NCBI GenBank assembly: GCA_016235245.1
Contig: JACRLO010000021.1
Coordinates: 1-64,000, forward strand
Origin: Nitrospirota bacterium
GTDB taxonomy: Bacteria; Nitrospirota; Thermodesulfovibrionia; Thermodesulfovibrionales; UBA6898
Length of the DNA stretch: 64,000 bases
Reading direction: 5' to 3'
Below are positions 2,054 to 62,250 of this stretch, piece after piece. The notes under the pieces were generated by a model. The model saw only the letters and a list, made by a program, of their open reading frames with translations, made no database searches and was not told the origin of the DNA. The translations under genes and the position numbers were made by a program. Within the stretch, counting starts at the first letter, position 1. Every line of letters begins with the position of its first letter.

Positions 2054-2533
2054 ATGCTCAGGTTATCCACAAAGGGACAGTATGGCGTCCGCGCGATGTA
2101 TGAGATTGCAAAGGCCGGCAGTATTGGGCCGGTCACGATAAAGCAGATCTCCGAACGGCAGGACGTTTCAGTCTCATATCTCGAGCAGATACTCAATACA
2201 CTCCGTAAATCAGGGATTATCCAGAGTGTGAAGGGGCCGGGCGGCGGCTATGTCCTTTCCCGGGAGCCGGAGAAGATCAGCATCGCCGAGATCCTCAGGG
2301 AACTGGAAGGGCCGGTAGCGATCACCTCCTGCCTTGATCCTGCCGAGGGCTGCATCCGCATTGACAGTTGCGTAACACACCTTCTCTGGAAATCGCTCGG
2401 CGAGAATATCGAGAGGTTTCTTGACAGCATGTCTCTTGACGATCTGCTTGCGGGTAATCAGCTCATGACGATACCGAAGAGGCCCAGGAAAGTCAGGCAG
2501 GGACACGCATCAGGGCGGCCCGGCAGAGCATGA
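2054..2533 (+). CDS. iscR: Rrf2/IscR-family transcription regulator
   Basis: A 159-residue winged-helix regulator that heads the iron-sulfur cluster genes. The N-terminal LRLSTKGQYGVRAM and the wing segment GPGGGYVLSR are typical of Rrf2 proteins. The C-terminal half carries Cys93, Cys100 and Cys106 followed by His109 (motif end CVTHLLW), matching the three-Cys/one-His [2Fe-2S] ligand set of E. coli IscR, although the first spacer is one residue longer. A cluster-sensing repressor of the downstream tusA-iscS-iscU genes is the natural reading. Its end overlaps the following ATG by four bases. The tail after residue 140 is basic and probably disordered. Confidence 0.9.
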   Translation: MLRLSTKGQYGVRAMYEIAKAGSIGPVTIKQISERQDVSVSYLEQILNTLRKSGIIQSVKGPGGGYVLSREPEKISIAEILRELEGPVAITSCLDPAEGCIRIDSCVTHLLWKSLGENIERFLDSMSLDDLLAGNQLMTIPKRPRKVRQGHASGRPGRA

Positions 2534-2781
2534 AATTTGTCCAGGACGTAAAGCCTGATGTAACTACAGACATTGTTTATATGATGTGCCCCATGCATCT
2601 TCTGAAACTCGAGGAGCAGATGAAGGAACTGGAGCCGGGCCAGATACTTGAGATCATGACTGACTATGACGGCGCGCTTGAAGATATCCCTGCGTGGTGC
2701 GACAAAACAGGTAATGAATTTTTGGGAATTGACGAGACACCGGATTTCTTTAAATTTTATATAAGGAAGGGCACGAGGTGA
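2530..2781 (+). CDS. TusA-family sulfur-carrier protein
   Basis: An 83-residue TusA-fold protein. The signature Cys-Pro pair is present (Cys20-Pro21 in MMCPMHLLKLEE), as is the second half of the fold with LEDIPAWCDKTGNEFLG. TusA proteins carry a persulfide on this Cys and relay sulfur between enzymes. Here the gene sits between iscR and the cysteine-desulfurase homologue, overlapping the former by four bases, so it may donate or accept sulfur for cluster assembly. That role is inference: in E. coli TusA serves tRNA thiolation. An extra Cys in AWCDK could be redox active. Confidence 0.85.
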   Translation: MKFVQDVKPDVTTDIVYMMCPMHLLKLEEQMKELEPGQILEIMTDYDGALEDIPAWCDKTGNEFLGIDETPDFFKFYIRKGTR

Positions 2782-2783
2782 TC

Positions 2784-3983
2784 ATGAAGAAATACTATGT
2801 TGACCATGTTGCGACAAACCCCCTTCACCCTGATGTACTTACGGCGATGATGCCGTATTTCACGGAAGAGTTTGGCAACCCCCTCAGCGTCTATGCGTAT
2901 GGTATGAAGGCCAAGGAGGCGATCGAGTCGGCCCGCGGACAGGTCGCCGCACTGGTGAATGCAAAGCCTGCTGAAATTATTTTTACGGCCAGCGGTGCCG
3001 AGGCGAACAACTTTGCCCTGCGGGGCATTGCCCTTGCGCGGCAGAACGAGGGCAAGCATATTTTGGTATCGAGGATGGAGCATCATTCTATTCTCAATGC
3101 TGCGCGGTTCCTCGAAAAGAGCGGCTTTACCGTAACGTATCTGCCGGTGGACAAACAGGGTTTTGTTGATCCTGAAACCGTGAAGAAGATGATAACCAAA
3201 GAGACCACCCTGATTTCAGTCACGCATGCGAGCAGCGAAGTCGGCACGATCGAGCCGATAAAGGAGATTGTGAAGATCGCGAAAGATCAGAATATCTCTG
3301 TCCATACCGACGCAGTCGCCACAACCGGCAATATACCGGTTGATATGCCTGATCTTGGCGTTGACCTGCTGAGCATGGCTGCTCATCAGTTTTATGGACC
3401 AAAAGGCGCTGCAGCGCTCGTGGTGAAACAGGGGACGCGCATCGTTCCGCTGATCTACGGCGGCATACAGGAGTCAGGCAGGCGTGCAGGCACCGAAAAT
3501 GTACCGGCGATTGTCGGTATGGGAAAAGCTGCCGAGCTTGCAAAGGCGGAACTGCAGGGCAGGATGGACTATCTCAGACCTCTCCGTGACAAGATCATTG
3601 ATGTCATGGCGAATGTCGAGAGGGTCTACCTGACCGGCGACAGGAACAACAGGCTTCCGGCGCATGCGAGCTTCTGCGCGGAATATATTGAGGGGGAGGC
3701 AATGCTCCTGCTACTGGCCGCAAAAGGCATCTTTTCGGCAAGCGGGTCTGCCTGCTCTTCAAAGGCGTTAAAGGCATCGCCGGTCTTGCTCTCGATGGGC
3801 ATACCGTCCGGTCTTGCTCAGGGTTCGATTGTGTTCAGTCTGGGCATGGGTAATACCCCTGAAGATATCGACTATGTTGCAGCGGAGTTCCCTGCAGTTA
3901 TCAAACGGCTCAGAGAAATCTCTCCCTATTCCCAGGGGTGGGGAGATAACCAGGAAGGTGGATCATGTACAGTGACAAAGTAA
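2784..3983 (+). CDS. iscS: IscS/NifS-like protein lacking the PLP-binding lysine
   Basis: By sequence this is a class I cysteine desulfurase of 399 residues, the sulfur donor for IscU. The catalytic loop Cys is intact (Cys324 in SGSACSS), as are the stacking His in MEHHSI and the Asp in HTDAVA. However, the motif that normally reads SxHKxYGPKG reads AAHQFYGPKG: codon 3387-3389 is CAG, so residue 202 is Gln where the Schiff-base Lys belongs. The residue equivalent to E. coli Gln183 is also changed (DAVA). I chose ATG 2784, five bases after GAGG, over GTG 2778. The protein ends inside iscU. Classical desulfurase activity is doubtful; a scaffold role or one using another sulfur source is possible. 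Confidence 0.88.
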   Translation: MKKYYVDHVATNPLHPDVLTAMMPYFTEEFGNPLSVYAYGMKAKEAIESARGQVAALVNAKPAEIIFTASGAEANNFALRGIALARQNEGKHILVSRMEHHSILNAARFLEKSGFTVTYLPVDKQGFVDPETVKKMITKETTLISVTHASSEVGTIEPIKEIVKIAKDQNISVHTDAVATTGNIPVDMPDLGVDLLSMAAHQFYGPKGAAALVVKQGTRIVPLIYGGIQESGRRAGTENVPAIVGMGKAAELAKAELQGRMDYLRPLRDKIIDVMANVERVYLTGDRNNRLPAHASFCAEYIEGEAMLLLLAAKGIFSASGSACSSKALKASPVLLSMGIPSGLAQGSIVFSLGMGNTPEDIDYVAAEFPAVIKRLREISPYSQGWGDNQEGGSCTVTK

Positions 3984-4336
3984 TGGATCATTTCACCAAT
4001 CCCCGCAACGTAGGGGACATGGAAGATGCGGATGGTGTCGGCACAGAGGGAAATCCCACGTGCGGGGATGCCATGAAGATCTACATCAAAGTACAGGATG
4101 ACCGCATCGTTGATGCGAAGTTCAAGACCTTTGGCTGCGGCGCAGCCATTGCCGTCAGCAGCATGGTGACCGCGATGGTGAAGGGCAAGACGCTTGATGA
4201 AGCGCTTGCCATATCCAAAGAGGCTGTTGCCAATGAACTTGGCGGACTTCCTCCTCAGAAGATGCACTGTTCCAACCTTGGCGCGGATGCACTGAAGAAG
4301 GCGATTGAGGATTACCGCTCAAAGAAGAAACCGTAG
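3965..4336 (+). CDS. iscU: Iron-sulfur cluster assembly scaffold IscU
   Basis: A 123-residue IscU/NifU-N protein on which Fe-S clusters are built before transfer to apoproteins. All three ligand cysteines are present: Cys33 in NPTCGD, Cys58 in FGCGAAIA and Cys102 in MHCSNLG. The start overlaps the end of the IscS-like gene by 19 bases, so the two are translationally coupled and likely to form the usual IscS-IscU complex. No hscA, hscB, iscA or ferredoxin gene follows, so this is a minimal Isc set. Confidence 0.95.
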   Translation: MYSDKVMDHFTNPRNVGDMEDADGVGTEGNPTCGDAMKIYIKVQDDRIVDAKFKTFGCGAAIAVSSMVTAMVKGKTLDEALAISKEAVANELGGLPPQKMHCSNLGADALKKAIEDYRSKKKP

Positions 4337-60689: not shown

Positions 60690-61988
60690 ATGATTAACGT
60701 TGGGATTATCGGTTTCGGGACAGTCGGCACAGGCACGGCAGGTATACTGCTGAAAAACAGGGATCTGCTGAAGCAGCGAACAGGTATTGATATCAATCTT
60801 CGGAAGATCGCTGACCTTGACATCAAACGGGACCGCGGTATCAGGATCCCGAAGGGCGTACTGACCTCAAATGCAGAGGAGCTTTTCAACGATCCGAAGA
60901 TACATATCATTGTTGAACTCATAGGCGGCACGACAATCGCAAAAGAGATGATTCTTAAAGCTATTCGCGCAGGCAAACACGTTGTGACCGCAAACAAGGC
61001 ACTGCTTGCCACCCATGGCATAGAGATATTCAAGGCTGCGGAAAAGGCGGGTGTCGAAGTGGGTTTCGAGGCTGCAGTGGCAGGAGGCATACCGATTATA
61101 AAGGTGCTTAGAGAAGGGCTTGTCGCAAACAGGATCAAGGCAGTGTATGGTATCATCAATGGCACCACAAACTATATCCTGTCTAAAATGTCAGCAGAGA
61201 AGGCCCAGTTTTCAGATGTGCTGAAAGAGGCCCAGAGACTTGGTTACGCAGAGGCAGACCCGACCTATGATATCGAAGGGATTGATTCGGCGCACAAACT
61301 TGCGATCCTCGCTTCAATCGCCTTTGGGAGACAGTTTACGATCAAAGACGTCTATCGAGAGGGCATCTCCTGGATTTCCCCCCTGGACATCGAGTTTGCA
61401 CGGGAGTTGGGTTGCAAGATCAAACTGCTCGGTATTACGAAAGAAACGAACGGACAGGTTGAACTCAGAGTGCATCCTACTATGGTTCCTGAAGAGCTCC
61501 TGATCTCGAAGGTTGATGGTGTCTTCAATGCGGTCTATGTAGAAGGTGACGCTGTCGGCTCAACGCTCTATTATGGCCGTGGCGCCGGAGACCTTCCGAC
61601 AGGCAGTGCGGTGGTGAGCGATATTGCAGACATTGCGCGGGATATTGCGGCCAATTCAGTCGGCAGAATTCGTGCATTCGCGAACACTCAAAAACCGATC
61701 CCTCTGATGAAAATGGAAGATGTGATGTCCATGTATTATTTCCGCTTCTCCGCGATCGACAAGCCAGGAGTGCTCTCAAAGATATCCGGCATTCTCGGCA
61801 AGCACAACATCAGCATCGCCTCGGTCATCCAGAGGGACCGCATGGAAGGCAAGGCTGTGCCTCTGGTCGTGCTGACGCATATGGCAAAAGAGAAAGGCGT
61901 TGTCAGCGCCATGAAGGAGATCAATAAGTTAACGATCGTAGCTGGCAAAACAGTCTTCATCCGCGTTGAGGGCAAAGGACACCATTAG
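60690..61988 (+). CDS. hom: Homoserine dehydrogenase
   Basis: A 432-residue monofunctional enzyme that makes homoserine, precursor of threonine and methionine. The NAD(P) fold is IIGFGTVGTGTAG, the catalytic region includes GIINGTTNYILSKM and YAEADPTYDIEGIDSAHKL, and a C-terminal ACT domain (about 355-425, FSAIDKPGVLSKISGIL) implies feedback by threonine. Its last bases overlap an open TusA frame, and sulfur-carrier genes follow, which links it to methionine rather than threonine. Confidence 0.96.
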   Translation: MINVGIIGFGTVGTGTAGILLKNRDLLKQRTGIDINLRKIADLDIKRDRGIRIPKGVLTSNAEELFNDPKIHIIVELIGGTTIAKEMILKAIRAGKHVVTANKALLATHGIEIFKAAEKAGVEVGFEAAVAGGIPIIKVLREGLVANRIKAVYGIINGTTNYILSKMSAEKAQFSDVLKEAQRLGYAEADPTYDIEGIDSAHKLAILASIAFGRQFTIKDVYREGISWISPLDIEFARELGCKIKLLGITKETNGQVELRVHPTMVPEELLISKVDGVFNAVYVEGDAVGSTLYYGRGAGDLPTGSAVVSDIADIARDIAANSVGRIRAFANTQKPIPLMKMEDVMSMYYFRFSAIDKPGVLSKISGILGKHNISIASVIQRDRMEGKAVPLVVLTHMAKEKGVVSAMKEINKLTIVAGKTVFIRVEGKGHH

Positions 61989-62004
61989 TCTGGCAGGCGC
62001 TATC

Positions 62005-62250
62005 TTGAATACGATCAAGCAGGATAAAAGGATCGACATCAGAGGCCTTGTATGTCCTTATACCTTTGTTAAGGTAAAGCTTGCTATGGAATCCATGGAG
62101 ACAGGACAGGTCCTTGAGGTCCTGCTTGATTATGAAGAGGCGACCAGGAGCATTCCCAGGTCCATGAAAGAGCATGGACAGAAGGTCCTGAATGTCGTAA
62201 AGATAAACGATACTGACTGGGTCTTATCCATAAGAAAGGACAACGATTAA
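62005..62250 (+). CDS. TusA-family sulfurtransferase
   Basis: About 81 residues with the full TusA pattern: DIRGLVCPYTFVKVKLAME holds the Cys-Pro, followed by TGQVLEVLLDYEEATRSIP and a C-terminal strand. Unlike the TusA at 2530 it has Cys-Pro-Tyr, a form common in MoeB-linked operons. The start is uncertain: TTG 62005 (AGG upstream) or TTG 61966 within hom. Its stop shares a base with the MoeB-like ATG, so it very likely works with that enzyme and the JAMM protein after it. Confidence 0.86.
   Translation: MNTIKQDKRIDIRGLVCPYTFVKVKLAMESMETGQVLEVLLDYEEATRSIPRSMKEHGQKVLNVVKINDTDWVLSIRKDND

Follow-up and report, generated by a model that had tools for sequence, protein, structure and literature searches.

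A TusA-family sulfur carrier accompanies a PLP-less IscS in an ISC-type operon of Nitrospirota and may supply its sulfur

A DsrE2-TusA sulfur relay is known from sulfur oxidizers, and the minimal ISC system (MIS), reportedly defined by Garcia et al. 2022, comprises an IscS-like protein and IscU with no operon chaperones or carriers. Excerpts of PMC12192291 describe MIS as having a cysteine desulfurase. In E. coli, IscS is an active desulfurase and sulfur donor, and TusA takes its sulfur, competes with IscU and lowers Fe-S assembly (PMC11302665, excerpt); the complex of IscS and TusA is represented by PDB 3lvj. An IscS without PLP is known from A. fulgidus, where IscS2 partners with IscU (PDB 4eb5, 4eb7 and 4hvk), and has also been noted for IscS1 of M. 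acetivorans (PMC7585200, excerpt). Such proteins have been puzzling ever since, being encoded beside IscU yet unable to make sulfur, and earlier proposals have invoked either sulfide from outside or a role solely as ligand. Here, we describe an operon of a Nitrospirota bacterium in which a PLP-less IscS is joined by a TusA-family protein. The open-access literature, covered by titles and abstract openings and with subscription papers outside the scope, holds no report of TusA beside a PLP-less IscS, and we regard the novelty of this partnership as provisional.

The operon lies near the start of the window, by which we mean the whole stretch of 64,000 nucleotides analysed (contig JACRLO010000021.1 of assembly GCA_016235245.1). 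The genes of an IscR-like regulator, TusA, IscS and IscU share one strand, each overlapping or nearly abutting the next (Table 1). An earlier note on this DNA had delimited the TusA gene exactly, and the four-base overlap with the regulator gene that it described is indeed formed by an ATGA at 2530-2533 common to both open reading frames. Likewise, two bases separate the TusA stop codon (2779-2781) from the ATG of IscS at 2784, though with the alternative start codon GTG at 2778 the two genes would overlap.

Table 1. Genes and key residues of the ISC-type operon (positions in the window)
Feature	Position	Strand	Basis
Rrf2/IscR-like regulator	2054..2533	+	PF02082 137.2 bits; TIGR02010 IscR 146 bits
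TusA-family sulfur carrier, CPMH variant	2530..2781	+	PF01206 74.9 bits; 83 aa
C20-P21-M22-H23 of TusA (CPxH replacing CPxP)	2587..2598	+	sequence
C57 of TusA (second Cys, AWC)	2698..2700	+	E. coli TusA C56 aligned
IscS homologue, degraded PLP/substrate site	2784..3983	+	PF00266 257.7 bits; residue typing
Q202 of IscS at PLP-lysine position (E. coli K206)	3387..3389	+	alignment
C324 of IscS = persulfide cysteine (E. coli C328), retained	3753..3755	+	alignment
IscU/NifU_N scaffold, ligand residues retained	3965..4336	+	PF01592 180.9 bits; TIGR03419 208.2 bits

The IscS homologue belongs to the IscS/NifS cysteine desulfurases by family match and loop cysteine, but its PLP and substrate site is lost. 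Besides the change of the PLP lysine, which bears out its earlier description as lysine-less, alignment with E. coli IscS reveals the replacements Q183 to A179, T76 to A72, N155 to S151 and R354 to V350, with H104, D180 and C328 all retained. Judged by these residues, we consider it a dead desulfurase. In E. coli IscS, the variants K206A, Q183E and H104Q have lost desulfurase activity and R354K is active (PMC9978102, excerpt), so that losing the lysine weighs more, and homologues lacking R354 alone may still be enzymes. The persulfide cysteine is retained in all 139 TusA-linked dead IscS and in 57 of 58 unlinked ones, the remaining sequence being gapped there. We also note a cysteine in the tail of the window IscS (GGSCTVTK, encoded at 3950-3983); a cysteine lies within the last 12 residues at 67 of the 86 loci of the same class (L018-L103) versus 11 of 51 intact IscS.

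TusA proteins carry a Cys-Pro-x-Pro signature. The Cys-Pro reported earlier for the window protein is present, but the signature reads CPMH, with the cysteine and the first proline retained. The protein scores well above the gathering cut-off of its Pfam family (28.6 bits) and reaches 35 bits against the 78 bits of the TusA equivalog NF001423, by which it belongs to the TusA family without being orthologous TusA. Its supposedly extra cysteine, C57 in AWCDK, exists and is not unusual: a WC pair is also read in unlinked TusA such as L345 and L347-L351, and given its counterpart in E. coli TusA we have ruled it out as a special mark. Among linked TusA proteins, C20 and P21 are found in 150/150, C57 in 147/150 and H23 in 110/150, with CPxP retained in 40/150; in a class alignment of 30 relatives, the invariant positions include C20, P21, H23, D45, D47, D52, W56 and C57. 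It is CPxH rather than C57 that distinguishes this TusA, and among 19 unlinked TusA compared this variant occurs solely in genome G079, where the gene (L341) adjoins a truncated IscR, has lost the WC pair, has no IscS or IscU nearby and looks like an operon remnant.

Residues of the E. coli interface provide mixed evidence for docking. R27 and R31 of TusA and D52 of IscS are contact residues in the E. coli complex (PMC2854127, excerpt). In linked TusA the R27 position is mostly Glu or Asp, whereas the R31 position is Lys or Arg in 114/150; the D52 position of IscS is acidic in 132/139 linked dead homologues, but also in 50/53 intact ones.

The regulator falls within the Rrf2 family but stays below the IscR equivalog cut-off of 207.55 bits; the C/C/C/H positions of E. 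coli IscR, which we take to be its [2Fe-2S] ligands, are conserved in the alignment. IscU exceeds the TIGR03419 cut-off of 187.9 bits, carries the complete Cys/Asp/Cys/His/Cys ligand set and shares GNPTCGD, FGCGAA and KMHCS with E. coli IscU; its best PDB match is chain C of 4eb5.

Compared with the A. fulgidus system, the window IscS likewise lacks the PLP lysine (replaced by Gln, versus Asp in A. fulgidus), keeps the cysteine loop and has an IscU partner, but the two proteins are 44.7% identical and fall on separate tree branches; the loci covered on the A. fulgidus side, its relatives L280 and L281, have an upstream TusA. The E. coli pair shares the TusA family with the window and, with most TusA-linked dead IscS loci, an acidic residue at D52 of IscS and Lys or Arg at R31 of TusA, yet there IscS possesses the desulfurase residues lost here, and tusA lies outside the isc operon and encodes a CPxP protein competing with IscU, unlike the CPxH protein encoded within the operon here. 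MIS resembles this operon in combining an IscS-like protein with IscU in the absence of chaperones or further carriers; here the scaffold is present, but TusA has been added, the desulfurase residues are lost and desulfurase activity is predicted to be absent. The best PDB sequence match of the window IscS is the series 9wep-9wfy, labelled cysteine desulfurase, whose entries differ at PLP-site positions similar to those changed here and which probably represents an Aquificota protein; the Aquificota loci that we found have no TusA near, unlike the window.

The earlier note had held that a gene order unique to this genome would speak against its idea, but the order is widely conserved. A phylum search with the window IscS covered 295 genomes, and 30 plus 80 loci were taken from among the matches listed. 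The complete order IscR-TusA-IscS-IscU was found at 82 of the 86 loci of the same class (window included). Of the exceptions, L073 and L098 have neither IscR nor TusA, L027 has no IscU within its short flank, and L072 lacks IscR and meets a contig end. The median distance between TusA and IscS is 16 bp by profile ends. As control, 30 intact-type loci were drawn from a search of 148 genomes. Counting identical IscS sequences once, setting aside as partial those in which the K or R position was not seen, and calling TusA linked if it shared the strand and lay no more than 1.5 kb away, we found TusA beside 102/108 site-degraded (K and/or R lost) but only 1/33 intact IscS of the phylum, with a threshold of 20 bits at which very divergent TusA may be missed at intact loci (the host's own paralogs L007 and L008 score 20 and 23). 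Linkage holds both when K and R are lost (96/101) and when R alone is lost (6/7).

Co-occurrence across whole genomes points in the same direction. A profile built from 30 linked TusA was run on 48 genomes of the same class, of which 21 have a dead IscS and 27 do not, and at 130 bits or more a linked-type TusA was called in 19/21 versus 1/27, a contrast partly tied to assembly quality, since the genes are neighbours and a single assembly gap removes both. G004 and G144 have a dead IscS with IscU and no linked-type TusA genome-wide, and the single positive among the 27 is the remnant in G079. The Fisher values of 1.7e-24 and 3.4e-10 ignore relatedness and are not evidence of independent events.

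Beyond Nitrospirota, the pairing is less regular. Scanning public genomes for the motif A-H-[codon ending in C/T]-[F/L/M/I]-Y-G-P-K-G yielded 97 stretches, and TusA adjoins 14/79 K-lost IscS in which the R position was seen (14/64 with R lost, 0/15 with R kept). A total of 59 dead IscS with more than 900 bp of flank have no neighbouring TusA, by which we rejected the notion that a dead IscS always needs TusA; evidently, such an IscS can function with no TusA linked to it genetically. In the scan, no TusA neighbour was found in rows of Aquificota, Myxococcota/Zixibacteria, Rokubacteria or Verrucomicrobia. Among 23 genomes of the phylum that includes Pyrohabitans, TusA stands beside 12/13 K-lost versus 3/10 intact IscS, and among 247 of the one that includes Caldimicrobium, beside 10/25 K-lost versus 0/4 intact ones. 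The pairing also exists in Thermodesulfobacteriota and archaea, with differing gene orders. At 14 archaeal loci, several from the same genomes, a pseudoIscS is followed by TusA, an IscS that keeps K and R and, where the locus extends far enough, IscU, usually with a second IscU too. The TusA-linked intact IscS of the Pyrohabitans phylum (3) and of the motif scan (4 of its 5 intact rows) belong to such operons, and this second IscS has Ile at the Q183 position, which makes its activity uncertain. In the archaeal operons L286, L288, L285 and L276, the second IscU is diverged and has NRCC replacing KMHC.

Some of these operons also recall the relay of sulfur oxidizers. Eight rows have a DsrE2-type gene in the vicinity of a dead IscS, six with clear and two with very weak matches, versus 0/53 intact rows. 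In L294, L296, L303 and L307, the order is pseudoIscS-IscU-DsrE2-TusA, so that DsrE2 adjoins TusA as in sulfur oxidizers, here beside IscS and IscU; in L297 and L299, a DsrE2-type gene occurs near a dead IscS without TusA, and that of L297 also matches Pfam DrsE_2. The window operon, unlike the sulfur-oxidizer relay, contains no DsrE2. Two further arrangements were seen among loci without TusA. The dead IscS of the Aquificota locus L157 is flanked by a P-loop gene of Mrp/NUBPL type on one side and a QueH gene on the other, with neither IscU nor TusA near. In Rokubacteria rows among L128-L216, the PLP lysine is replaced by Leu, Q183 and R354 are kept, and IscR and IscU adjoin; possibly, this is a separate kind of lysine-less IscS.

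The tree of 116 IscS representatives gathers 77 dead ones from several phyla into one group with an SH-aLRT of 100. In a second tree, built without the trait columns and two long rows and with the A. fulgidus and E. coli proteins added, A. fulgidus IscS2 joins L280 (SH-aLRT 99) within intact archaeal IscS; the window IscS lies in the other dead clade, and PLP loss of the A. fulgidus type appears separate from that of the window type. At L280 and L281, TusA immediately precedes IscS and IscU follows it, and their TusA (CPEP, second Cys absent) groups with unlinked TusA in a small tree of few columns and unsettled bootstraps. Because this dead IscS branch is separate and its TusA sides with unlinked ones, the pairing seems to have arisen at least twice, to the extent that such quick, short trees are reliable. 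The main dead clade has essentially a single origin, so that an independent-pairs test of PLP loss against TusA, with its one starred pair, carries little information; within this clade the association counts as largely one inherited event. Rearrangement is weak evidence, as the up/down gene order changes only twice on the tree.

The host genome (3.25 Mb in 41 contigs) has eight TusA-family places, seven besides the operon TusA. The window itself has a second TusA-family open reading frame at 61966-62250 (CPYT), directly followed by ThiF/MoeB-like and JAMM-like open reading frames (labels by eye) up to 63465; the group may be a cluster for cysteine synthesis or a thiocarboxylate cluster. On another contig, beside a three-domain NifU, the host encodes an IscS/NifS in which K and R are intact, and SufB/SufD gave no match in this genome with a search that was positive in 14/14 control genomes. 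The host carries dsrA and is therefore expected to make sulfide. An intact class-V cysteine desulfurase is present in the genomes G014, G032 and G040 and was not found in five others of the same class (G114, G237, G247, G249 and G287, 92-98% complete), where by our own rough estimate about 2 such absences among about 86 genomes would be expected from incompleteness. The other PF00266 matches of these five carry motifs that we take to be SerC-like or aminotransferase-like, and G249 and G287 are a sister pair making up their genus with those two genomes only. The absences hint at a sulfide-fed route, though incompleteness could explain several.

As the cofactor site of this IscS is lost and relatives keep both genes together, our data suggest that TusA brings in sulfur that this IscS cannot make itself. 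We consider it fairly probable that this ISC-type Fe-S assembly operon relies on a dedicated TusA for its sulfur, the former cysteine desulfurase now serving as a platform free of PLP. The charging of TusA would take place elsewhere, with an active NifS, a rhodanese or a sulfide-supplied DsrE-type protein as donor, and TusA would dock on the IscS face equivalent to the one that accepts it in E. coli. It might then hand its sulfane sulfur either to C324 in the IscS loop or straight to IscU. The PLP-free IscS would relay persulfide or offer a platform for ligands, IscU would assemble the cluster and the IscR-like protein would adjust expression. The earlier proposal that TusA is the sulfur input for the scaffold thus stands as regards a dedicated partnership, which gene order, co-occurrence and the renewed pairing with a dead IscS of separate origin support; the flow from TusA to IscS and IscU we infer from the lost desulfurase residues, the kept persulfide cysteine and the DsrE2 of some operons. 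Counting against this explanation are the opposite traffic of TusA in E. coli, the 59 unlinked dead IscS, G004 and G144, the largely single origin of the association in the main clade, the mostly acidic R27 position and the active-looking NifS of the host beside its three-domain NifU.

Alternatively, the dead IscS and IscU could use free sulfide directly, with TusA removing sulfur or serving as reductant or chaperone. A. fulgidus IscS is devoid of desulfurase activity and contributes a cysteine ligand to the IscU cluster (cited in PMC7585200, excerpt), H2S can feed E. coli IscU without IscS (PMC13015791, excerpt), sulfide production is expected of the host, and TusA is missing from many loci with a dead IscS. 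We nevertheless deem this unlikely, as it leaves unexplained why a sulfane-sulfur carrier, in some operons together with DsrE2, is kept beside a dead IscS. That TusA merely belongs to the IscR-regulated set, and carries NifS sulfur to tRNA thiolation or the molybdenum cofactor, would account for its place in the operon by co-regulation and agree with the known role of E. coli TusA (PMC2854127 and PMC11302665, excerpts), with an intact NifS and seven other TusA-family genes in the host. However, the linked-type TusA is absent from 26/27 genomes without a dead IscS, intact IscS loci have TusA in a single case among 33, and the pairing recurs with a separately derived dead IscS, making this quite unlikely. 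Very unlikely, finally, is the delivery of iron or a small Fe-S unit instead of sulfur by a TusA variant binding metal through C20, H23, C57 and nearby acidic residues, since the frequency of CPxH and C57 in linked TusA and the invariance of D45, D47, D52 and H23 in the class alignment are offset by the CPxP kept in 40/150 and the missing second cysteine of L280 and L281.

If sulfur indeed enters through TusA, the operon might tentatively be extended to a cysteine-independent ISC of sulfide-rich anaerobes, in which sulfane sulfur made from environmental sulfide would pass by DsrE2 or rhodanese to the dedicated CPxH TusA and on to PLP-free IscS and IscU, with some lineages having no active class-V desulfurase; such a route would reverse the TusA-IscS traffic known in E. 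coli. For the PLP-less IscS itself, the conserved dedicated carrier would be a concrete, testable source of sulfur. The partnership suggests that IscS can be retained without chemistry of its own, as a platform for docking and for persulfide, and, if true, TusA would here feed Fe-S assembly instead of diverting sulfur from it.
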